A stretch of DNA of 64,000 nucleotides from Sphingomonadaceae bacterium (GTDB lineage Bacteria; Pseudomonadota; Alphaproteobacteria; Sphingomonadales; Sphingomonadaceae), in the NCBI GenBank assembly GCA_019239915.1, contig JAFAZF010000011.1, forward strand, positions 1 through 64,000, given 5' to 3'. A program made the position numbers and the translations under genes. Positions within the stretch are counted from its first letter, which is position 1. Every line of letters starts with the position of its first letter. Shown one piece after another: positions 4,765 to 15,258 of this stretch. Below the pieces are notes generated by a model. The model did not search any database. It worked only from the letters and a program-made list of their open reading frames with translations, and was not told the DNA's origin.

Positions 4765-5136
4765 ATGGCGCGCATAATTGTGGCAGATGATGACGAGATC
4801 GTAGGCGAGATTGCATGCAACGCATTGATCGCGGCAGGTCATGGCGCGGGGCTGATCACCGATGGCGCTGAGGCGCTCCGCGTGATCAAGGCGCGCCAGC
4901 CCGATCTCGTCGTGCTCGATTGCAACATGCCCGGCTTGTCGGGTGTCCTCCTCGTTCAGGAATTGCGCAAGACCGCCGGTTTCGAGCAGCTTCCGGTGCT
5001 GATGCTGACCGGCCGACGCGGCAAAGCCGACGAGGAGCTCGCGCGCTTCGCCGGTGCCAACGACTATCTGAAGAAGCCCTTCGATCCCGAGGAACTGGCC
5101 TTCCGCGTCGACGAGCTGCTGAGCGTCAACGGCTGA
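4765..5136 (+). CDS. single-domain CheY-like response regulator
   Basis: A 123-residue stand-alone receiver. It has the acidic cluster VADDDE at residues 6-11, phospho-acceptor D52 in VVLDCNMPGLSG, the conserved Thr in LMLTGR and the Lys in DYLKKPF. There is no output domain, so it signals by protein contact. It is divergent from the hybrid kinase that ends in an HPt domain, which suggests a phosphorelay pair. Its last codons overlap the end of the convergent KpsC-like gene by 11 bp. Confidence 0.9.
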   Translation: MARIIVADDDEIVGEIACNALIAAGHGAGLITDGAEALRVIKARQPDLVVLDCNMPGLSGVLLVQELRKTAGFEQLPVLMLTGRRGKADEELARFAGANDYLKKPFDPEELAFRVDELLSVNG

Positions 5137-6787
5137 GGCGGCGTGCGATGCGGCCTTGCAGGGTTCGCAGGAGGATGAGCGGGGTCATGCGCGGCCGAGC
5201 ACCGGTCGCGAATCGGGCGAGCAAGACTTCAGGCGGACAGGGTAGGTCTGTCGAAGGATCGAGATAGCGCGGGTAGAGGATGAGCGCGCCGGCGATGAGC
5301 GCCGCGAGTGCTAGCGGCCGGCCTCGACGCGCGACCGGCGGCGCGAGATCGGTGGTCAAGCCCCAGCCCGCGTAAAACGGCTGACCGTGCGTCACCACCG
5401 GCTTGCCGCGCAGCAGCGCCTCGAAGCCGATCAGCGAGGTGAGCACGTGGACCGCGTCGACCTGCTCCACCGCGGCGATCGCGGTGCCGCCCCTGACGAC
5501 ATGATCGGCATAAGCGAGCGCCTCCTCGTCGGCGACGCGGCCGATGCGATGGCCGGCCTCGACGTCGGGATGGGGGCGGAACCAGATCTCCGCGTCCGGC
5601 TCGGCGGCACGCGCGCGGCGGAGGAGGTCGAGATTGCCCGCGACGCCGGCACCGCCGGTTGCGACCGAGAGATCGTCCTCGACCTGGCCCGCGACCAGCA
5701 CGAGCTTGCGGCCGCTCCGCTGCGGCCAACTGTCGTTCGCCTCGGCGACGCCATATTTGCTGATGCGGTTGGCGACCAGCGCGAGGGCGAGCCGTTCGGC
5801 GCGGGTGAGCAGGTCCGGCGTGAAGTCCGTCTCGGCGAGCAGCGTTTCGAGGTCGCTTGGGCCGCTCGGATCGAAATAGACACCGCGACTGTCGACCACG
5901 ATCGAATAGGGAAGGTGGAAGTTGCTGCCGAGCCCGATCGAGCGCACGAAACCGTCCTCGATCCGCGCGACCGGCACGCCGGCCGCCGTCGCCTCCTCGC
6001 GGAGCCTCTGCGGCGTGCGCGCCGGCCATACGGCCACGCCACCGCCTTCCTTCTTTGCCGCGCGAACGGCTTTCGCCGCATCGTGCGTGAAGCGGAGCGG
6101 CGTTCGCCGCCCGGTCCAGAGGAACGCGGCGATACGCCCGCGCTTCCACCAGGAGATGCCGGCTGCCGCGCCGATCGCGCGATTGGCGTCGAGGAGATGT
6201 CGCCAGAAGGCGAGCTGCGCGACCGCTTTCAGCGCATCGGCAACGCCGCCGTCATAAGGGTCGCGATAACGGACGCTGCCGAGAAGCGCATGCTGGAGAT
6301 CGGGCAGCGGCAGCGGCTCGGCGAGCGTTTCCGCCGGCACGCGCAGGATCGTGGCGAGCAGCAGCCATTCGTCGCCGGGATGCGCAAGCAACAGACGCGC
6401 ATGTACGAGCAGCGGCCACGGGTCGACATCGCCGCGCGCCGTCGCGACGCCTGCTCGGCGGCACGCCGCCTGTGCTTTGCGCGCCCATCGCGTCTTCGGC
6501 ACCAGGATAATGAGGCGATCGCGCTCGGCGGCGAAGCGGCGCAGGCTCGCGACGACGTCCCGCTGGCGCTCGGCCCGAACGACGATTGCGGGCTCGGAAG
6601 GTACGGGCGGCGAGGGGGCCCAGAAGCTTCCGCCGACGCGCGCCTCGCGAATAGCGGTGACGACGGCTTCGAGATTATCATCCGGGCTGGGCATCGGCGA
6701 GATAGTGAACGCGCTGATCGCGGCGACGTCGGTTCGCACGCCGGGATAAGGTGGCGACCGCAGCAACGGCAAACCGCCGCTCGTCAC
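5126..6787 (-). CDS. KpsC-like beta-Kdo glycosyltransferase (capsule polysaccharide protein)
   Basis: A 553-residue protein with the marks of the KpsC/KpsS (LipA/LipB) family: an N-terminal PLLRSPPYPG stretch, EDGFVRS near residue 277, RPHPDVEAG near 404 and GQPFYAGWGL near 466. The family adds beta-linked Kdo to phospholipid to make the capsule linker. KpsC has two transferase units. Here the first (about 1-200) is degenerate and only the second carries clear motifs. The start is a GTG at 6787 that overlaps the TGA of the upstream dioxygenase (GTGA), implying translational coupling. No capsule ABC export genes lie in the window, so the acceptor glycan is unknown. Confidence 0.8.
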   Translation of the reverse strand: MTSGGLPLLRSPPYPGVRTDVAAISAFTISPMPSPDDNLEAVVTAIREARVGGSFWAPSPPVPSEPAIVVRAERQRDVVASLRRFAAERDRLIILVPKTRWARKAQAACRRAGVATARGDVDPWPLLVHARLLLAHPGDEWLLLATILRVPAETLAEPLPLPDLQHALLGSVRYRDPYDGGVADALKAVAQLAFWRHLLDANRAIGAAAGISWWKRGRIAAFLWTGRRTPLRFTHDAAKAVRAAKKEGGGVAVWPARTPQRLREEATAAGVPVARIEDGFVRSIGLGSNFHLPYSIVVDSRGVYFDPSGPSDLETLLAETDFTPDLLTRAERLALALVANRISKYGVAEANDSWPQRSGRKLVLVAGQVEDDLSVATGGAGVAGNLDLLRRARAAEPDAEIWFRPHPDVEAGHRIGRVADEEALAYADHVVRGGTAIAAVEQVDAVHVLTSLIGFEALLRGKPVVTHGQPFYAGWGLTTDLAPPVARRGRPLALAALIAGALILYPRYLDPSTDLPCPPEVLLARFATGARPRMTPLILLRTLQGRIARRLSR

Positions 6788-7845
6788 GGCCCGGCGCTCG
6801 GCAACGGGGCGATCGGCGTCGTCCGGCCGATCGGCCGCCACGGCTGGCCGAGCAGGCGCGCCAGCCGGTCCCGCCCGCGCCACATCCAACCGATCCGTCG
6901 CTCGGCAAGGCCGGGCAGCGCGAGGAAGTCGAGCCCCGTCCAGGGCACGAACGGGTTGCGCCGGGCATAACCCCAGATTTCGACACGGGCGGAGGGCCGG
7001 CGCGCGATGCCACGCGCGTGGAAGCCCGAGGTATCGGCGACGATCAGCGTGTTGGCCGGTACGGCGAAGCAACGTGGCGGCGGCAGGCCGAGCCCCGCCA
7101 GCTCGGTTGCGGCGATGCGCAGCGAACCGCGCCCGGAGAGACGATCGGCGCCCCCGTGCTGGAGCGCGCGCGCATCCTCCCACGCGAGCCGTGCCGGCGT
7201 GCGGCGATGGGAGCCCGGCACGTAGCAGAAAGGGCCGTCTTCCTCGGCGACGTCGGTGAGGAACAGCCATGCCTTCATCGTCGCGTGGAAGGTGTCGCTG
7301 TGCAGCATGGTCTGCGGATCCTCGTCCCCCGGCAGCGCACGCGCGAAGATCGTCTGGACATAGGCGAGCGGCGCGCCAGCGAAACTCGCGACATAGCGCG
7401 TCATCCCGGACCACGGCGATCCGCCGAGCAGCGCGCGAAGCTCGGGCACCGCCGCGAGCATCGCGGAATCGATCGCCATGCGCCGCGTGATCGTGTTCCC
7501 CTGTACCTGCTCGCGAGCTTCGCCGGCATAGCCGAGAACGCCGTCGCGCAACCGCGCGAACAGATCTGGCGGCAACGCGTTCTCGCGGACGATGAAGCCG
7601 TCGCGCGCGAAGCTCCTGGCGTCGTCCGCTGAGATCAGCCGCGCCAGTCGCCGCCGTCGCGATGCCGCAAGCGCGCACGCCAGCCGGACGCGGCCACGGT
7701 GCAGCCCGAGCGCATTCAGCCGCCGCGAGCCGATCAGAGGATTGTCGATGAAGGATTTGGCGGTGGTGCCGAGCTGCAGCAGCCACCAGGGCGCGAGCGC
7801 ATAGCGGAGCACGCTGCTCTTGCCCCTGTCACCACGCACGCTCAC
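6784..7845 (-). CDS. phytanoyl-CoA dioxygenase (PhyH)-family Fe(II)/2-oxoglutarate oxygenase
   Basis: A 353-residue protein with the facial triad H182-x-D184 (LHSDTFH) and distal H276 (GFHARG), plus R287 as a likely 2-oxoglutarate ligand, and a GPFCYVPGSH segment typical of PhyH-like enzymes. Such enzymes hydroxylate small molecules, lipids or sugars. It is the first gene of a pair: its stop codon overlaps the GTG start of the KpsC-like transferase. That coupling suggests it modifies a glycan or lipid handled by the transferase. The substrate is not deducible. The upstream Anbu gene ends 46 bp earlier, so it could also sit at the end of that operon. Confidence 0.75.
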   Translation of the reverse strand: MSVRGDRGKSSVLRYALAPWWLLQLGTTAKSFIDNPLIGSRRLNALGLHRGRVRLACALAASRRRRLARLISADDARSFARDGFIVRENALPPDLFARLRDGVLGYAGEAREQVQGNTITRRMAIDSAMLAAVPELRALLGGSPWSGMTRYVASFAGAPLAYVQTIFARALPGDEDPQTMLHSDTFHATMKAWLFLTDVAEEDGPFCYVPGSHRRTPARLAWEDARALQHGGADRLSGRGSLRIAATELAGLGLPPPRCFAVPANTLIVADTSGFHARGIARRPSARVEIWGYARRNPFVPWTGLDFLALPGLAERRIGWMWRGRDRLARLLGQPWRPIGRTTPIAPLPSAGP

Positions 7846-7891
7846 CAGCGCCGACTAGCAAAGCCGGCGCGGTGCCTCAATCACTCAAGTT

Positions 7892-8680
7892 TCAGCCGCG
7901 GCGCGCGGCCGCAATGCCCGGGCCGTCCTCTCGCCACACGCCCATGAAGGGGGGGTCGGGAATGGTGTCGCGCGCCTCGTTGAGCATCAGCGACCATCGC
8001 GCCGAGAGATCGTTGAAATAGGCGTCGTCGGCCTCGATGCGGCGGCGGATGACCGGCAACGTGCGATCGCTCGGCAGCACGGTGAGGTCGAGCGGACGGC
8101 CTACTGCGAGGTTCGAGCGGATCGTGGAATCGAACGAGATCAGCCCGACCTTCACCGCCTCGTCGACCGGCGTTCCATATTTCAGCGCGCGATCGAGGAT
8201 CGGCTTGCCATATTTGGTTTCGCCGATCTGGAGGAACGGCTGGTCCGCCTGGCACTCGATGAAATTGCCCGCCGAATAGATGTGGTAGAGCTTCAGCGGC
8301 GCGTCGCCGATGCGGCCGCCGACGAGCACCGAGATGCCGGCGGAGACCTTCTCCTTCTCGAGGGCGGCGCGCATGTCCTCGCGTACCATCCGCACCGCGT
8401 CGCCGACGAGCTGGGCGGCGCGGAACATGCTGGGCACGTCGTGGAGCGTGCGCCTGCCTCCATCGTCATCTTCGCGCGGTAAGCCCTCCTCGAGCAGGCC
8501 GAGCGCCGTCTGGGTGATCGAGAGGTTGCCTGCCGTCGATGCGAGGATGAGGCGATCGTCGGCCTCGGCGAGCGTGTGCAGCTTGCGGTAGCTGGAGATG
8601 TTGTCGACCCCGGCGTTGGTGCGCGTGTCGGCGATCATCACCAGGCCGCCCTCTACGAGCATGCCGACGCAATAGGTCAT
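7892..8680 (-). CDS. Anbu, proteasome-like Ntn-hydrolase
   Basis: A 262-residue proteasome-type protein without a propeptide. Removal of Met1 exposes T2 as the N-terminal nucleophile. D18 (IADTR) and K33 (YRKLH) occupy positions close to the catalytic D17 and K33 of beta subunits. A C-terminal extension beyond the core (from about 200) is typical of Anbu rather than HslV or PrcB. Anbu proteins form lock-washer or ring-like oligomers and have no established substrate. The gene lies 12 bp downstream of the transglutaminase gene and ends the four-gene operon running from 12100. The genomic partnership is a known signature of this family. Confidence 0.9.
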   Translation of the reverse strand: MTYCVGMLVEGGLVMIADTRTNAGVDNISSYRKLHTLAEADDRLILASTAGNLSITQTALGLLEEGLPREDDDGGRRTLHDVPSMFRAAQLVGDAVRMVREDMRAALEKEKVSAGISVLVGGRIGDAPLKLYHIYSAGNFIECQADQPFLQIGETKYGKPILDRALKYGTPVDEAVKVGLISFDSTIRSNLAVGRPLDLTVLPSDRTLPVIRRRIEADDAYFNDLSARWSLMLNEARDTIPDPPFMGVWREDGPGIAAARRG

Positions 8681-8692
8681 GTCACGCCACCT

Positions 8693-9523
8693 CTAGCGCT
8701 GCGGCGCCGGGCCATCCAGGCGCTCGACGCGGACCGCGACCGTCAGTCGCTCGGCACCGCCGCCGATGCGTGCCCCGGATAGCGGAGCCGCGTCGCGATA
8801 GTCGAGTCCGATCGCCACGCGGACATAGCCATCGTCCGGGCAATGGTCGTTGGCGGGATCGAAGGCGATCCAGCCATAGTCGGCGAGCCAGACTTCCGCC
8901 CAGGCGTGCGTCGCGGGCTGATCCTCGTCGGGAGCGTCGGGCCGCCAGATATGGCCCGAGACGTAGCGTGCCGGATGGCCGAGCACGCGCGCCGCGGCAA
9001 TCATCGCATGCGCGTGATCCTGGCAGACGCCGCGCTCCTCGGCGAATGCCTGCCCCGCCCCGCGACCGATCTCGGCAGACGACGGATCGAACGCGATCCG
9101 CTCATGCAGTGCGCCCATGAGCGCGTGCAACGTCGAAAGCGCCGAATCCTGGGTTGCTGCGATCGTCGTCGCGAAGTCGGTGATCGGCTCGTCGGGGCGC
9201 GTCAGCGCGGACGGCCGGAGATAGAGCTGCGGCGGCAGCGGCTCGATCGCGCCCGCGACCATGCCGGCACGGTTCTCGGTCAGCACCTCGCCGCGCACGG
9301 TCACGTCGATCGCCTCGATCGGGCCGTCGACATAGAGCATCGTCGCCTCGTTGCCGAAGCCGTCGCGGCCGCTCTTGAGCCGCGCGTCGCAGTCGACGTC
9401 GATCTGCCAGTCGGCGACGTTCTGGCCGTAGCAGCTGAGCGGCGTCACCCGCAGCAACTGGACGAGGCGCTTCTGCGGCTCGGAGAAGCGATAGCCGGTA
9501 CGATGATGGATGAGCAGGCGCAC
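8693..9523 (-). CDS. transglutaminase-like protease, Anbu-operon type
   Basis: A 276-residue protein from a GTG at 9523, ten bases after the alpha-E stop. The N-terminal half is a beta-rich domain (VRLLIHHRTGYRF). The C-terminal half is a transglutaminase core with C167 in ERGVCQDHAHA, H206 in THAWAEVW and D222 in GWIAFDPANDH, so the full Cys-His-Asp triad is present. In this family the core is thought to act as a peptidase or amide-bond enzyme. A Ca-binding eukaryotic-type transglutaminase is unlikely. It is co-transcribed with ATP-grasp, alpha-E and Anbu genes. Confidence 0.9.
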   Translation of the reverse strand: MRLLIHHRTGYRFSEPQKRLVQLLRVTPLSCYGQNVADWQIDVDCDARLKSGRDGFGNEATMLYVDGPIEAIDVTVRGEVLTENRAGMVAGAIEPLPPQLYLRPSALTRPDEPITDFATTIAATQDSALSTLHALMGALHERIAFDPSSAEIGRGAGQAFAEERGVCQDHAHAMIAAARVLGHPARYVSGHIWRPDAPDEDQPATHAWAEVWLADYGWIAFDPANDHCPDDGYVRVAIGLDYRDAAPLSGARIGGGAERLTVAVRVERLDGPAPQR

Positions 9524-9533
9524 GGGGATCGTC

Positions 9534-10469
9534 TCAGGCGAAGCGGAATTGCGCGCCGATCGCCTGATCGAGCCGCGCGTTTTCGGCAATGAAGGCGGTG
9601 AGATATTCGTGCAGGCCGCCGTTGATGATGTTCCGCGTCGTCGCACGGGCGAGGGCGGTCTGTCGCAGGCGCGCGAGGCGATCGGCCTCGCCCTGCAGGC
9701 CTGTGCGCTTGCCAATGTTGGTGAGGATCATCGCGACCTCGTCGCAGGAGGCGGCGAGCGAACGCGGCATCTCCCCGCGCAGGATGAGGAGATCGGCGAC
9801 GTTGAGCGCCGTGAGCCCATCGCGATAGAGCCAGCGATAGGCGGTCACGGCCGAGACGGTCTGCAGGATCGTCGTCCACTGATCGCGATCGAGGACACCG
9901 CCGACCTTCTCTCCTTCTGGCAGCAGAAGATGATATTTGACGTCGATCAGCCGCGCGGTGTTGTCGCCACGCTCGACGGCCGCGCCGAGCCGCACGAAGT
10001 GGCTCGCCTCGTTGCGCAGCATCCGGTGGAGCGCGCCTTCGAAGCCGCGCGCCTCCGCCTTCAGGCTGTCGATCAGTGCCAGCGTTGCGCCCTGGCCGCC
10101 GGTGGACGCGCGGTCGCGCACGCCGAGCCAGGCGCGGTTGATCGACTCCCATGCTTCGCGGCTGAGCGCGGTGCGCACCGCGCGGGCGTTGCCCCGCGCG
10201 GCATCGAGGCAGGCGCGGATCGAGCTCGGATTGTCGTGGCTGAGCGTCAGATAGCGGCTGACGCTGGTCGGCGTCAGGCTCTCGCCGCTGATCGCGAAGC
10301 CATAATCGGCGGCGACAACCGCGAGCGCACTCTCCCAGGCGCCGGCACCGGCGGGCGTGTGGCTGAGCGAGTCGAGCCGCATCGTCGCTTCGATCAGCCG
10401 CGCGGTGAACTCCGCGCGCTCGACATAGCGCCCGATCCAGTAGAGCGAGGCGGCGGTGCGCGAGAGCAT
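9534..10469 (-). CDS. alpha-E domain protein
   Basis: A 311-residue all-helical protein starting MLSRTAASLYWIGRYVERAE, the hallmark of the alpha-E family (formerly DUF403). The conserved Glu/Arg-rich helices continue through the length, with ENARLDQAIGAQF at the end. Its biochemical role is unknown. It is nearly always encoded next to a circularly permuted ATP-grasp and a transglutaminase, and is presumed to work with them in peptide bond formation or modification. The ATG at 10469 shares its first base with the stop codon of the ATP-grasp gene, so the two are translationally coupled. Confidence 0.9.
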   Translation of the reverse strand: MLSRTAASLYWIGRYVERAEFTARLIEATMRLDSLSHTPAGAGAWESALAVVAADYGFAISGESLTPTSVSRYLTLSHDNPSSIRACLDAARGNARAVRTALSREAWESINRAWLGVRDRASTGGQGATLALIDSLKAEARGFEGALHRMLRNEASHFVRLGAAVERGDNTARLIDVKYHLLLPEGEKVGGVLDRDQWTTILQTVSAVTAYRWLYRDGLTALNVADLLILRGEMPRSLAASCDEVAMILTNIGKRTGLQGEADRLARLRQTALARATTRNIINGGLHEYLTAFIAENARLDQAIGAQFRFA

Positions 10470-12100
10470 CAGCGCTCGTCCGAGCTATCGTGCGCCGGAC
10501 CGGCGAGGGACTGGCTCTGGATCGTGTCGCCGAGCTTCTGGATCTGACCGCCCTGCGCCTGACCGAGGCCGATCGCGACGCTCATCCCGCCTTCCTGCTG
10601 GAGGAGCGATCGGTCGATCGATTGATCCTGCTGCTGCCCGGATTGCGATTGCGACTGACGCTGCCGTCGCTTCGCGCCGGCGAGGATCAGGCTATCCTTG
10701 GTGCCACCGCCCTGGCTCGAGTTGACAACCAGCGAACCCTCCCGGAGCGCGACCCGCGTCAGGCCGCCGGGCACGATCGTCACGCCGTTGGTGCCGGTGA
10801 GGCAGAAGGGCCGGAAGTCGACATGGCGCGGCGCGACGCCCTTGGCGGTGAGCGTCGGCACGGTGGAAAGGGCGAGCGTCGGCTGCGCGATATAGCGATG
10901 CGGTTCGGCGGCGAGCGCCTCGCGGAAGCGCTCGATCTCAGCCTTCGATGCGGTCGGCCCGACGAGCATGCCATAGCCGCCCGAGCCGTCAACCAGCTTG
11001 ACGACGAGCGACTCGAGATTGTCGAGCGTATATTGCAGCGCCTGCCCTTCGCGGCAGCGCCAGGTCTCGACATTGGGCAGCTTGGGCTCGCCGCCGGAAT
11101 AGTAGCGGACGATTTCGGGCATGTAGCTGTAGATCGCCTTGTCGTCGGCGACGCCGGTGCCGGGCGCGTTGGCGAGCGCGACGTTGCCGGCGAGATAAGC
11201 TGCCATCAGCCCGGGCACGCCGAGCACCGAATCCGGCCGGAAGACGAGCGGATCGATGAAGTCATCGTCGATGCGGCGATAGATGACATCGACGCGCACG
11301 CGCCCTTCGATCGTGCGCATCCAGACGAAATCGTCGTCGACCTCGAGATCGGCCGCCTCGACCAATTCGATGCCGAGATTGTCGGCAAGGAAGCTGTGCT
11401 CGTAGAAGGCCGAGTTGAAGTGGCCCGGCGTCAGCAGCACGCACACCGGCTCGTGCCCCGAGCCTCGCGGGGCAACCGAGCGCAGCGTTTCGCGCAACAT
11501 GTCGGGATAGGAGTCGACCGGCTCGACTTCGTAGGTGTCGAACAGCTCGGGACAGAGGCGGATCATCGCCTCGCGATTCTCCAACATATAAGAGACGCCG
11601 GAGGGGGTGCGGGCATTGTCCTCGAGCACGAAGAACTGGTCGGGCCCCGTGCGCACCATGTCGATCCCGCAGATATGCGCGTAGATGCCGTGCGGTGGGC
11701 GCGCGCCAGAAACCTCGGTGCGGAACTGCGGATTGCCGAAGATCAGCTCGGGCGGGATGATTCCGTCCGCGAGGATGCGCCGCTCGCCGTAGATGTCGTC
11801 GAGGAAGGCATTGATCGCGAGCACGCGCTGCTCGAGGCCCTCCTGCAGCCGCGCCCATTCGCCTGCCGAGAAGATGCGCGGCACGATATCGAACGGGATG
11901 ATACGTTCGGCGGATTCTTCCTCGCCATAGACCGCGAAGGTGATGCCGAGCTGGCGGAACGCCGCCTCCGCCGCATGTTGACGGCGCTCGAGCTCGGTCG
12001 CCGGTGTCTCCTCGATCCAGCGCGCCAACGCCGCGAACTCCTCGCGCGCACCCGCGGCATCGCTGCCATAGATCTCGTCGAACGCCTTGCCGCCGCTCAT
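10469..12100 (-). CDS. circularly permuted type-2 ATP-grasp protein
   Basis: A 543-residue protein of the family once called DUF404/DUF407. Family blocks include FDEIYG near the start, LEQRVLAINAFLDDIYGER, HGIYAHICGIDMVR, VLEDNARTPSGVSYMLENR and VVKLVDGSGGYGMLVGP (nucleotide-binding part). ATP-grasp enzymes join a carboxylate to an amine through an acyl phosphate, so a peptide ligase is the expected activity. The last 65 residues are a Gln/Ser-rich tail (RQRQSQSQSGQQQDQS) outside the domain. It is the first gene of the operon ending in Anbu, and its promoter should lie in 12101-12230, divergent from the kinase gene. Confidence 0.9.
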   Translation of the reverse strand: MSGGKAFDEIYGSDAAGAREEFAALARWIEETPATELERRQHAAEAAFRQLGITFAVYGEEESAERIIPFDIVPRIFSAGEWARLQEGLEQRVLAINAFLDDIYGERRILADGIIPPELIFGNPQFRTEVSGARPPHGIYAHICGIDMVRTGPDQFFVLEDNARTPSGVSYMLENREAMIRLCPELFDTYEVEPVDSYPDMLRETLRSVAPRGSGHEPVCVLLTPGHFNSAFYEHSFLADNLGIELVEAADLEVDDDFVWMRTIEGRVRVDVIYRRIDDDFIDPLVFRPDSVLGVPGLMAAYLAGNVALANAPGTGVADDKAIYSYMPEIVRYYSGGEPKLPNVETWRCREGQALQYTLDNLESLVVKLVDGSGGYGMLVGPTASKAEIERFREALAAEPHRYIAQPTLALSTVPTLTAKGVAPRHVDFRPFCLTGTNGVTIVPGGLTRVALREGSLVVNSSQGGGTKDSLILAGAKRRQRQSQSQSGQQQDQSIDRSLLQQEGGMSVAIGLGQAQGGQIQKLGDTIQSQSLAGPAHDSSDER

Positions 12101-12231
12101 GTGGCCTCGTGGCTGCTGTGGCGTGCAGACTGCAACGCATTGGTGCGGCGCACAAGAGGCGTTTGCGTGCGTAGACAGCAGCAGTGGATCATTCGCAAAC
12201 GCGCGCCGCTGCCGTGGTTATGGTTGCTTAT

Positions 12232-12256
12232 GGAACGGAAGCTTGACTGCACCGTT
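12232..12256 (+). promoter_or_regulatory. EcfG-type general stress promoter
   Basis: GGAAC at 12232-12236 and CGTT at 12253-12256 are separated by 16 bases. This fits the alphaproteobacterial EcfG sigma consensus (GGAAC, 16-17 bases, CGTT). The predicted transcript would begin near 12264, about 43 bases before the kinase start at 12307. This is a pattern match by eye only. Confidence 0.55.
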
Positions 12257-12306
12257 CGCGCACCACGAGGGAGTCGGTGGCGCGCATTGCGCCAGCCGGG
12301 GGATTG

Positions 12307-14265
12307 ATGACGGCCAAGCGTATACCTGCGATGACGAGCGAGCGGTTCGAGCTGCTCGTTCAAAGCGTTACCGACTATGCGATCTACATGCTCGATCCCG
12401 GCGGGCACGTCGTGAGCTGGAATGCCGGCGCGCTGCGGCTCAAGGGCTACACGCAGGACGAGATCGTCGGCGAACATTTCTCGCGCTTTTATACCGATGA
12501 GGACAGGGCCGCGGGTATCCCGGCTCTCGCATTGTCGCGGGCGGAGAGGGAAGGTCGGTTCGAGGCCGAAGGCTGGCGCGTGCGTAAGGACGGCGCGCGA
12601 TTCTGGGCCAATGTGCTGATCGATCCGATCCGCGATAGTTCAGGCACGCTGATCGGTTTCGCGAAGGTCACCCGCGATCTCACCGAGCGCCGCCAGGCCG
12701 AGGAGGCGCTTCGCCGCAGCGAAGAACGGTTCCGCCTGCTTGTCCAGAGCGTTACCGATTACGCGATCTATATGCTCGATCCTACCGGCCGGATCGTCAG
12801 CTGGAACCCCGGTGCCCAGCGCTTCAAGGGCTATCTGCCCGATGAGATCATCGGTGAGCATTTCTCGCGCTTCTATACCGAAGAGGACAAGGCCGCTGGA
12901 ATTCCCGCGTACGCGCTCGCCTGCGCCGAAAACGACGGGAAGTTCGAGGCCGAAGGCTGGCGCGTCCGCAAGGACGGCACGCACTTCTGGGCGAGCGTCG
13001 TCATCGATCCGGTGCGGGATGCTTCGGGGCGGCTGATCGGCTTCGCCAAGATCACCCGGGATCTCACCGAGCGCCGCGAGACGCAGCGCATGCTCGAGCA
13101 GGCGCGCGAAGCGTTGTTCCAGTCGCAGAAAATGGATGCGCTGGGAAAGCTGACCGGCGGCGTCGCGCATGACTTCAACAATCTGCTTGCGGTGATCGTC
13201 GGCAGCATCGATCTCGCCCGCCGCCGTTTGGCCGAGGGGCAGGACATCGGCCGCTTCCTCGACAATGCGATGCAGGCGGCCGAGCGCGGTGCGTCGCTCA
13301 CGCAACGCATGCTCGCGTTCGCGCGCCGCTCCGAGCTCACCTTCGAGGCGGTCGACGTTGCCGCGCTCGTTCATGGCATGGCCGATCTGCTGCAGCGGAC
13401 GCTCGGGCCGGACATCGCGATCGATACGCGGTTCCCGCTGCTGCTCGATCCGGTGGCAACCGATCCGCGGCAGCTCGAGCTCGCGCTGCTCAATCTCGTC
13501 GTGAACGCGCGTGACGCGATGTCGCGAGGCGGACGCATCGCCATCGTAGCCGAGCGTGTCGAGATCGCCGTCGACGAACCGCAGGGCCTCTCGGCAGGCG
13601 CCTATGTGTGTCTGTCGGTGATCGATCAGGGAGAAGGGATGGACAAGGAGACGCTCGACCGCGCCGCCGAGCCCTTCTTCACGACCAAGGGGATAGGCAA
13701 GGGCACCGGGCTCGGATTGCCGATGGTGCACGGCCTGGCCGAGCAATGCGGCGGTCGGCTGACGCTCGCGAGCGTCAAGGGTGAGGGCACGACGGCAATG
13801 CTATGGCTGCCGGTTGCGAAGCGCACCGTCGCCTCGGATGACACGCCGGCGCCGGAGGCTATAGCAAGCGCGCCGGCGGGCTGCTCGTCGCTCACTATCC
13901 TCGCCGTCGACGACGATCTGCTCGTGCTGATCAACACCGCGGCGATGCTGGAAGAGGCCGGCCACGAGGTTTTGCAGGCGACCTCGGCCGCGCAGGCGAT
14001 TGGGCTGCTGCGCGATCACCCGGTGGATCTGATCGTCACCGACTTTGCAATGCCGGAGACCAACGGCGCTGAGTTTGCCGAAGCGGTCGCGCGCGAATGG
14101 CCCGGTATGCCGGTGCTGCTTGCGACCGGATTTGCCGAACTACCCGCCGGCACCGCCATGAGCCTGCCCCGGATATCGAAGCCATTCCGCGAGGATCAGC
14201 TCGCTGCCGCTGTGGATGCCGCGGCACGTCGCGCCGCCGAGCGATCGGAGGCGGAGAAGCGCTAG
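12307..14265 (+). CDS. tandem-PAS hybrid histidine kinase with C-terminal receiver
   Basis: A 652-residue soluble kinase. I chose the ATG at 12307, which follows a GGGGG tract. Two PAS domains (about 14-130 and 142-258) are very alike, each with QSVTDYAIYMLDP, GEHFSRFYT and FEAEGWRVRKDG, so they arose by recent internal duplication. HisKA has H288 in GGVAHDFNNLLAVI, followed by HATPase (NLVVNARDAM, DQGEGM, GKGTGLGLPMVHG) and a receiver with D579 in IVTDFAMPE. No transmembrane helix is present. An EcfG-type promoter lies just upstream, so it may belong to the general stress regulon. The ligand of the PAS domains is unknown. Confidence 0.9.
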   Translation: MTAKRIPAMTSERFELLVQSVTDYAIYMLDPGGHVVSWNAGALRLKGYTQDEIVGEHFSRFYTDEDRAAGIPALALSRAEREGRFEAEGWRVRKDGARFWANVLIDPIRDSSGTLIGFAKVTRDLTERRQAEEALRRSEERFRLLVQSVTDYAIYMLDPTGRIVSWNPGAQRFKGYLPDEIIGEHFSRFYTEEDKAAGIPAYALACAENDGKFEAEGWRVRKDGTHFWASVVIDPVRDASGRLIGFAKITRDLTERRETQRMLEQAREALFQSQKMDALGKLTGGVAHDFNNLLAVIVGSIDLARRRLAEGQDIGRFLDNAMQAAERGASLTQRMLAFARRSELTFEAVDVAALVHGMADLLQRTLGPDIAIDTRFPLLLDPVATDPRQLELALLNLVVNARDAMSRGGRIAIVAERVEIAVDEPQGLSAGAYVCLSVIDQGEGMDKETLDRAAEPFFTTKGIGKGTGLGLPMVHGLAEQCGGRLTLASVKGEGTTAMLWLPVAKRTVASDDTPAPEAIASAPAGCSSLTILAVDDDLLVLINTAAMLEEAGHEVLQATSAAQAIGLLRDHPVDLIVTDFAMPETNGAEFAEAVAREWPGMPVLLATGFAELPAGTAMSLPRISKPFREDQLAAAVDAAARRAAERSEAEKR

Positions 14266-14319
14266 GTTGGCAAGTCGCCGACGCCGCCGCTAGACTTTGC
14301 CTCAAGCGGAGAGGCGGGC

Positions 14320-15258
14320 ATGCAGCGAACGATATTGGTGATCGGCGGCACCGGTCTGATCGGGGGCGCCGCGGCGCTGCATCTTCGCTCGCTCGGCCAC
14401 GCGGTGACGATCAACGGCCGGACACCGACAGCCGCGCCGGCGCTGGCGGGCCTCGATTTTCTCGCAGGCGACTATACGCGCGACGACATCGGACGATCGA
14501 CGCTTCGGGGTTTCGACACCGTCGTCTTCTGCGCGGGGCAGGACGGGCGCCGCATGCCGGTCGGGTCCGATCCGGCCGCCCACTTTCACCGCACCAACAT
14601 CGTCGCCGTGCCCGCATTTCTCGCCAAGGCGCGCGACGCCGGTGTCGAACGCTGCGTGTATGTCGGCAGCTATTATCCTTGCCTGCTCTCGCAGGAACGC
14701 GTGGATGCGGATCCCTATCTGATTGGGCGCCAGATTACCGACATGGAGGTGCGCAAGCTCGATCGGCCCGGCTTCACTGTCTGCTCGCTGGCAGCGCCGT
14801 TCGTGATGGGCTGGCTGGAGGGCGTGAAGGTCGAGCTGATCGAGCTGATCATCCGCTATCTCGTCGGCGAGATCGGCGGACCCGGGCCGCGCTTCATCTT
14901 TCCGGGCGGCTCCAACTATATGTCGACGCTCTCCTTCTCGGAAGCGATCGCCGGCGCGATCGAGCGAGGCGAGCCGGGAAAGGAATATCTGATGGGGGAC
15001 GAGAACCTCAGCTATTTCGCATTCTACGACGCGGTGCGCCGCGCGCTTGGCCTGCCGGATCCGGTTGAGGTGCGCGATGCGGACCATCCGGTCATCCCGA
15101 ACGGATCCTACATGACGTTGCGCGGCGGCATCCCCGCCTATGAGCCCGATCCCGAGATGGTCGCGAGGCTCGGCTACCGCCGGCACGACTTCCTGCGCGA
15201 GGTTGCGGACATGATCCCGAAATACGCCAGGGAACTGGGCATCGTGATCCCGGCCTGA
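14320..15258 (+). CDS. NAD(P)-binding epimerase/dehydratase-like protein
   Basis: A 312-residue Rossmann protein with the nucleotide-binding motif VIGGTGLIGG at residues 6-15 and extended-SDR character. The usual YxxxK catalytic pair is not obvious: the region after the nucleotide fold reads CVYVGSYYPCL, so it may be an atypical SDR or a reductase/binding protein rather than a sugar epimerase. The ATG at 14320 is preceded by GAGAGGCGGG. It is followed by an FMN-binding protein gene in the same direction, and both lie beside the LysR-linked oxidative cluster. The substrate is unknown. Confidence 0.75.
   Translation: MQRTILVIGGTGLIGGAAALHLRSLGHAVTINGRTPTAAPALAGLDFLAGDYTRDDIGRSTLRGFDTVVFCAGQDGRRMPVGSDPAAHFHRTNIVAVPAFLAKARDAGVERCVYVGSYYPCLLSQERVDADPYLIGRQITDMEVRKLDRPGFTVCSLAAPFVMGWLEGVKVELIELIIRYLVGEIGGPGPRFIFPGGSNYMSTLSFSEAIAGAIERGEPGKEYLMGDENLSYFAFYDAVRRALGLPDPVEVRDADHPVIPNGSYMTLRGGIPAYEPDPEMVARLGYRRHDFLREVADMIPKYARELGIVIPA

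Follow-up and report, generated by a model that had tools for sequence, protein, structure and literature searches.

A glutamine-alternating C-terminal tail that varies in location among the proteins of Anbu operons

Why does the ligase of an otherwise familiar bacterial operon end in a long glutamine-rich extension, and does that extension belong to the ligase or to the operon? The question is raised by a 64 000 nt stretch of DNA from a Sphingomonadaceae bacterium (contig JAFAZF010000011.1; hereafter the window), which holds an Anbu operon encoding an ATP-grasp ligase, an Alpha-E protein, a transglutaminase-like protein and the proteasome-like hydrolase Anbu. The core of the window ATP-grasp terminates at ...GGGTKDSLIL (residue 473) and is followed by a Gln/Ser-rich C-terminal tail (residues 474–543; positions 10472–10681, minus strand) with 16 Gln in 70 residues, encoded by both CAA and CAG. 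AlphaFold2, run on the window ATP-grasp alone, gave pLDDT values under 50 for residues 477–543 and a mostly confident core, and in this model the tail peptide is probably disordered. By comparison of C-termini across relatives, the tail belongs to the operon rather than to one protein, and its location varies even inside the window's genus.

Survey of operon loci

Operon loci were gathered within the window's genus, family, class and phylum, together with named contigs, and were chosen by similarity to the window proteins. The four operon proteins were located with profiles built from the surveyed loci, and their C-termini were then read. The survey covers Pseudomonadota plus one Bacillota and one Acidobacteriota plasmid locus; of these last two, one (L436) is without the tail and the other (L437) is a second-cluster locus. 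Scoring a protein as tailed took at least three Gln, either within the ATP-grasp tail or within the last 15 residues, a rule set after the first tails had been seen; a narrower first pattern missed MTQS-type tails and gave 0/162 operons with both tails, and the rule of at least three Gln gave 4/239 and then 6/272. The location of the tail was counted in 272 of 359 distinct operons, window included, the other 87 having been dropped for want of a complete transglutaminase-like gene, and adjacency in 320 operons, with 47 not scoreable. Five ATP-grasps that were cut or had no GGGxKD motif were dropped, two of the 272 transglutaminase-like rows hold masked or unknown residues (L078 and L496), and the later counts were anchored on Alpha-E.

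Location of the tail within the operon

Across the 272 operons, a Gln tail was found on the transglutaminase-like protein only in 150, on the ATP-grasp only in 50, on both in six and on neither in 66. A strict rule of one tail per operon is thus rejected, and the two locations nevertheless tend to exclude each other in the raw counts (odds ratio 0.05, Fisher p 7e-16, kinship not corrected). The same variation is seen amongst the ten genomes of the window's own genus, two of which have no ATP-grasp match and one of which (G504) has a cut ATP-grasp. In the window and in L306 the tail is on the ATP-grasp and the transglutaminase-like end is without one (GPAPQR in the window, with one Gln in the last 15 residues); in L307–L309, L331 and L332 the ATP-grasp end has 0 or 1 Gln, and the transglutaminase-like protein ends in, for example, QRQSQSQ or GQTQ. 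An earlier, sequence-only reading of the window had looked to the closest homologues for the same tail on the ATP-grasp. The answer is mixed: only one of the six own-genus relatives with complete operons has it there, the other five being Gln-rich on the transglutaminase-like protein instead.

A third location is Alpha-E, which carries a Gln tail in 4 of 318 closed Alpha-E proteins (L230, L248, L441 and L443). All four belong to operons in which the profile found no operon-type transglutaminase gene and in which the ATP-grasp end is Gln-poor; a large transglutaminase-family gene lies near the L441 and L443 Alpha-E loci. C-terminal Gln at every second residue was found in the survey on each of ATP-grasp, transglutaminase-like protein and Alpha-E.

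The tail is a feature of operon proteins far more than of their relatives elsewhere. Amongst operon transglutaminase-like proteins, 139/239 have at least three Gln in the last 15 residues, 137/239 have Gln as the last residue and 190/239 have Gln in the last two positions, compared with 1/48, 0/48 and 4/48, respectively, for non-operon controls (28 orthologues of a lone gene and 20 of a second-cluster gene). Nineteen further non-operon proteins, mostly from genomes picked for having no operon-type transglutaminase gene, gave counts of three, none and none; the three (L350, L357 and L361) indicate that second-cluster proteins can gain a similar tail, and the control L352 has a TQTQTQ stretch just above its last 15 residues. 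With a threshold of at least four Gln in the last 12 residues, 71/167 transglutaminase-like proteins and 7/271 ATP-grasps were positive, as against 0/1126 other long open reading frames (ORFs) of the loci gathered by that stage, which were picked mechanically and are not annotated genes. The sequence-only reading had called the window's tail an unusual addition to an ATP-grasp, and these counts agree; nor is the tail random.

On the ATP-grasp itself, 222 of 279 distinct proteins have ends of under 12 residues, 30 pass the first rule for a Gln tail and 27 have other long ends. The Gln tails are scattered, occurring in Sphingomonas and its relatives, in several Hyphomicrobiales (Rhodoblastus L078, Beijerinckia L094, Methylocapsa L074 and Pleomorphomonas L091) and, outside the class, in a family coded f193 (L274, L275, L277 and L291); at least 18 state changes are needed on the tree. 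The longest tails reach 80 codons (L259). The final residue is Gln in 5/57 ATP-grasp tails, with R, S, G, A and more at the other ends. Two side observations concern the same C-termini. A total of 171 of the 279 distinct ATP-grasps stop exactly two residues past a KDTWVL-type core end, a strikingly fixed C-terminus. L033, from a contig named Actinobacteria bacterium 21-64-8, has an ATP-grasp tail identical to that of the own-genus sphingomonads L143 and L144, and is probably a mis-binned assembly.

Spacing and codon use

No common alignable tail sequence was seen, with GGMTQ[ST]-type pieces recurring at wide distance. The conserved Gln-rich tail that the sequence-only reading had sought amongst sphingomonad ATP-grasps thus exists as a kept composition and spacing only, and a conserved sequence is rejected. 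In 46 non-redundant ATP-grasp tails compared with shuffled versions, Gln residues are strongly enriched at a spacing of 2 (z 18.3) and 4 (z 8.7), and spacings of 1, 3 and 5 are depleted (z −4.5 to −5.1); 88 non-redundant transglutaminase tails gave z 11.9 and 5.8 for spacings 2 and 4. Gln at every second residue would place the Gln side chains on one face of an extended strand. Judged by these comparisons, the tail recurs, keeps its spacing rule whilst its sequence drifts and is far commoner on operon proteins than on controls.

Low-complexity sequence at the end of a protein invites a neutral explanation, in which unconstrained C-termini fill with slippage-prone repeats. Repeats of Q, S and G are common slippage products, and of the 35 scoreable ATP-grasp-tailed operons, 19 have no adjoining Anbu. 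Both Gln codons are nevertheless used in 42/57 ATP-grasp tails, and of the 30 tails with at least three Ser, 27 use more than one Ser codon; together with the period-2 spacing, these mixed codons mean that plain repeat slippage is no explanation. The strictness of the period, the low counts in controls (1/48 and 3/19) and background (0/1126), and the number of state changes on the tree also speak against neutral drift, which we regard as decidedly improbable. Selection at the nucleotide level, with the Gln codons before the next gene acting as a ribosome-binding or coupling signal, would suit the window, where the genes overlap or lie ~10 bases apart. A period of six bases across many codons is unlike a Shine–Dalgarno pattern, the tails run to as many as 80 codons, and 19 operons have a tailed transglutaminase-like protein although no Anbu gene lies nearby, all of which make such a signal very improbable indeed.

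What the tail persists without

A dependence of the tail on Anbu is rejected. Of 19 genomes searched, 11 gave no Anbu match, and the ATP-grasp of each of these 11 bears a Gln tail; the 19 were picked since their operon was without Anbu or without an operon-type transglutaminase gene, and 11/19 is therefore no rate. The transglutaminase-like protein of Sinorhizobium meliloti 1021 (L438) ends in ...QQGQSQAQN, at a locus where Anbu was not seen. The adjacent transglutaminase gene is likewise dispensable, as an ATP-grasp tail is found in 9/34 operons for which the profile found no operon-type transglutaminase gene beside Alpha-E.

The transglutaminase-like protein is itself often incomplete as an enzyme. 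Its catalytic Cys is lost in 106/272 operons (e.g. L306, L293, L294 and L035), whilst the His is kept in 271/272 and the Asp in 272/272; with the Cys gone and His and Asp retained, these proteins are recurrent pseudoenzymes, which merit separate study. Replacement of the Cys was found in 46/56 operons with an ATP-grasp tail, as against 60/216 others, and in 28/156 operons with the tail on the transglutaminase-like protein; outside the Sphingomonas sets, ATP-grasp-tailed operons had lost it in 13/23 and kept it in 10/23. Another Cys lies within six alignment columns in 12 of the 106 Cys-less proteins, but in only one of the 46 from ATP-grasp-tailed operons. A tail that depends on an active operon transglutaminase is thus rejected as a general rule.

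These counts bear directly on the proposal of the sequence-only reading that the ATP-grasp tail is a self-substrate of the operon transglutaminase. As a glutamine donor, the tail would serve self-crosslinking or amine exchange, and its density of Gln, the intact triad of the window protein, the Cys kept in 10/23 ATP-grasp-tailed operons outside the Sphingomonas sets and the presence of some transglutaminase-like gene in 11/11 genomes searched are in keeping with this. The last observation, together with a large transglutaminase-like gene near the tailed ATP-grasp in two f193 genomes (G807 and G841), means that another enzyme might conceivably act on the tail. The Cys is, however, replaced in most ATP-grasp-tailed operons (45 of those 46 proteins being without a nearby substitute) and in a minority of transglutaminase-tailed ones, and tails occur in operons with no operon-type transglutaminase gene found. 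As a general mechanism the proposal does not hold up, and we consider a donor role improbable; in the window genome, whose transglutaminase-like protein has all three triad residues, it may still hold.

The checked residues of the ligase stay. Out of 14 conserved ATP-grasp positions, 13 are kept in 328/328 proteins and one in 327/328, and all are kept in 60/60 Gln-tailed proteins; the 14 were chosen from columns invariant in a set of 52. That the transglutaminase Cys and Anbu are lost time and again, whilst the checked ligase residues remain, suggests which part is the core of the operon. From the same comparisons, a given operon mostly has the tail on a single protein, and the tail persists after loss of Anbu, of the Cys or of the adjacent transglutaminase gene.

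Proposed role of the tail

Anbu operons were described in 2008–2009 (Iyer 2009, as cited in PMC6376114 and PMC5666114), and according to excerpts of these two papers their role and substrates are not established. The excerpts also report negative peptidase assays for several Anbu proteins and phosphate release from ATP by one Anbu-operon ATP-grasp. Nitrogen limitation has been linked to a related gene cluster in Burkholderia cenocepacia (excerpt of PMC5491218); PMC6376114 cites such a link for Anbu, and PMC5666114 one for Pseudomonas putida, again as excerpted. Among the titles and opening abstract lines listed by literature searches, and in the excerpts of PMC6376114 and PMC5666114, no Gln-alternating tail shared among operon proteins and no recurrent loss of the transglutaminase Cys was found. 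A tail that sits on different operon proteins and is kept by composition and spacing offers a clue to the target of the operon, and a concrete candidate peptide.

We tentatively favour, at somewhat short of an even chance, a reading of these sequences in which the tail is a C-terminal element, transferable between proteins, that serves the ATP-grasp/Alpha-E ligase system as a tethered acceptor or carrier for amide formation. It would be carried by any of three neighbours, usually the transglutaminase-like protein, often the ATP-grasp and rarely Alpha-E, and would most probably lie in extended form along the ATP-grasp/Alpha-E pair, as a strand. That this pair is the partner of the tail is a plausible and equally tentative part of the proposal. 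The glutathione-synthetase-like ATP-grasp would then form an amide on the tail, probably at or near its C-terminus, the transglutaminase-like protein would often be a mere tail bearer, and Anbu, where present, may trim or release the product. A tethered acceptor or carrier is favoured by the constant ligase and Alpha-E, by the presence of the tail in 206/272 operons and by the fold of the ligase. Glutathione and glutathionylspermidine synthetases, the nearest solved folds of the window ATP-grasp after its closest structural relative, attach an amine to a short peptide at its C-terminal carboxylate; we know of no Gln tail on them. The fuller version, in which the tail is the substrate of the Anbu operon, a carrier moving between subunits in evolution that is extended or amidated by ATP-grasp/Alpha-E and cut back by Anbu, is on balance unlikely, if worth stating.

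The tail might instead act unmodified, the QxQxQ stretch adding as an edge strand to the ATP-grasp, Alpha-E or a common target and so holding ligase, transglutaminase-like protein and Anbu together or at that target. Period-2 Gln without positional conservation is what would be expected of a strand-addition or multivalent binding peptide, and one anchor suffices for a complex, which fits a tail on different subunits. As Gln is last in only 5/57 ATP-grasp tails, such a docking strand is nearly as likely as the acceptor. By itself it gives no account of Gln in the last two positions of 190/239 operon transglutaminase-like proteins, and pull-downs with Yersinia Anbu as bait gave no specific operon complex (excerpt of PMC6376114). 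Overall, we hold docking to be a real possibility, though a minority one.

Several observations weigh against a tethered acceptor or carrier. The rarity of a final Gln on the ATP-grasp is hard to square with strict C-terminal chemistry, and suits a docking strand just as well. No Gln-rich tail is found on the ATP-grasp or transglutaminase-like protein in 66/272 operons, and among the 34 operons with no operon-type transglutaminase gene, neither the ATP-grasp nor Alpha-E is so tailed in 21. Transglutaminase tails show no depletion of the odd spacings 1, 3 and 5 (z 2.1, 0.3 and −1.3). Mutual exclusion, strong in raw counts, falls short of significance when phylogenetically independent pairs are compared: on an Alpha-E tree built with FastTree, 2.8 of 13 pairs were opposite and 1.0 the same (median p 0.625), and none of the tests on three tree/data versions was significant. 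Moreover, 33/56 ATP-grasp-tailed rows come from the Sphingomonas sets, and in the 225 operons left without these sets the transglutaminase tail is present in 6/23 ATP-grasp-tailed operons, which thus carry both, and in 149/202 of the rest. Finally, with Alpha-E as the anchor and ATP-grasp positions preselected as invariant, the constancy of each is partly by construction.

Known systems offer partial parallels. Pup/proteasome tagging resembles the Anbu operons in its way of working, with C-terminal Gln on a disordered protein, an ATP-dependent ligase and a proteasome or a relative of it; the Pup modifier is small and free, ends in Gln or Glu, and is joined by a ligase with a glutamine-synthetase-like fold. 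In the Anbu operons the tails instead form part of operon enzymes and the ligase is an ATP-grasp; a free modifier was not looked for. The system of PMC12239564, as excerpted, likewise combines an ATP-grasp ligase and a peptidase acting on a protein C-terminus, but its ATP-grasp protein is different and the modified C-terminus is on a separate protein.

The operon in the window

Only its tail sets the window operon apart from an ordinary Anbu operon. The four genes are adjacent on the minus strand in the order ATP-grasp, Alpha-E, transglutaminase-like protein and Anbu. The ATP-grasp, of the circularly permuted type 2, glutathione-synthetase-like kind (10469–12100; 543 aa including the tail), matches PF14403 (E-value 2.3e-162) and has 3n6x as its nearest relative in the Protein Data Bank (PDB; E-value 1.6e-182), followed in a fold search by the synthetases named above. 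It shares one base (TGATG) with the Alpha-E gene (9534–10469; 311 aa; PF04168, E-value 3.7e-80), whose product was modelled as all-helical with a mean AlphaFold2 pLDDT of 90.9; compared with PDB folds, this confident model had no match at E ≤ 0.001. Next, beyond 10 intervening bases, comes the transglutaminase-like gene (8693–9523; 276 aa from a GTG start; PF01841, E-value 5.9e-23; PF08379, E-value 1.8e-18), with the triad C167 (9023–9025), H206 (8906–8908) and D222 (8858–8860), and after a further 12 bases the Anbu gene (7892–8680; 262 aa), whose best solved relatives are Anbu structures (5loy, E-value 1.9e-69). The window Anbu starts with Met-Thr-Tyr, Thr2 (codon 8675–8677) directly following Met, and 174/175 survey Anbu proteins have MTY, VTY or LTY where the profile match begins. 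The sequence-only reading had given this gene order and spacing, the four families, the intact triad and the Thr2 correctly. It was also right that the grouping is a known one, as excerpts of PMC6376114 and PMC5666114 describe the same gene set, in the same order and with the same families and active-site residues.

Scans for control elements gave little. No Rfam match was found in window positions 5000–15000, and a promoter and terminator scan of 7600–12400 gave no promoter and one terminator-like site, on the opposite strand and within chance. Sigma-54 sites, at three mismatches, numbered 85 in the window against 99 expected, with no sign of one at the operon; the match nearest to the operon start, at 12119, is on the plus strand and directed away from the operon.

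Neighbouring genes and related clusters

A PAS histidine kinase with a receiver domain (12277–14265, plus strand, longest ORF) diverges from the operon across a 176-base gap. Downstream, the minus-strand neighbours (5126–7845) are a PhyH-family protein (6784–7845) and a capsule polysaccharide protein, with no link to the operon seen. Elsewhere in the window's genome, a second cluster (G000:C59; L002, L333 and L336) comprises a large transglutaminase-like gene, an 894-aa ATP-grasp/Alpha-E reading frame and another transglutaminase-like gene, and further transglutaminase-like genes lie on another contig (G000:C20, L334).

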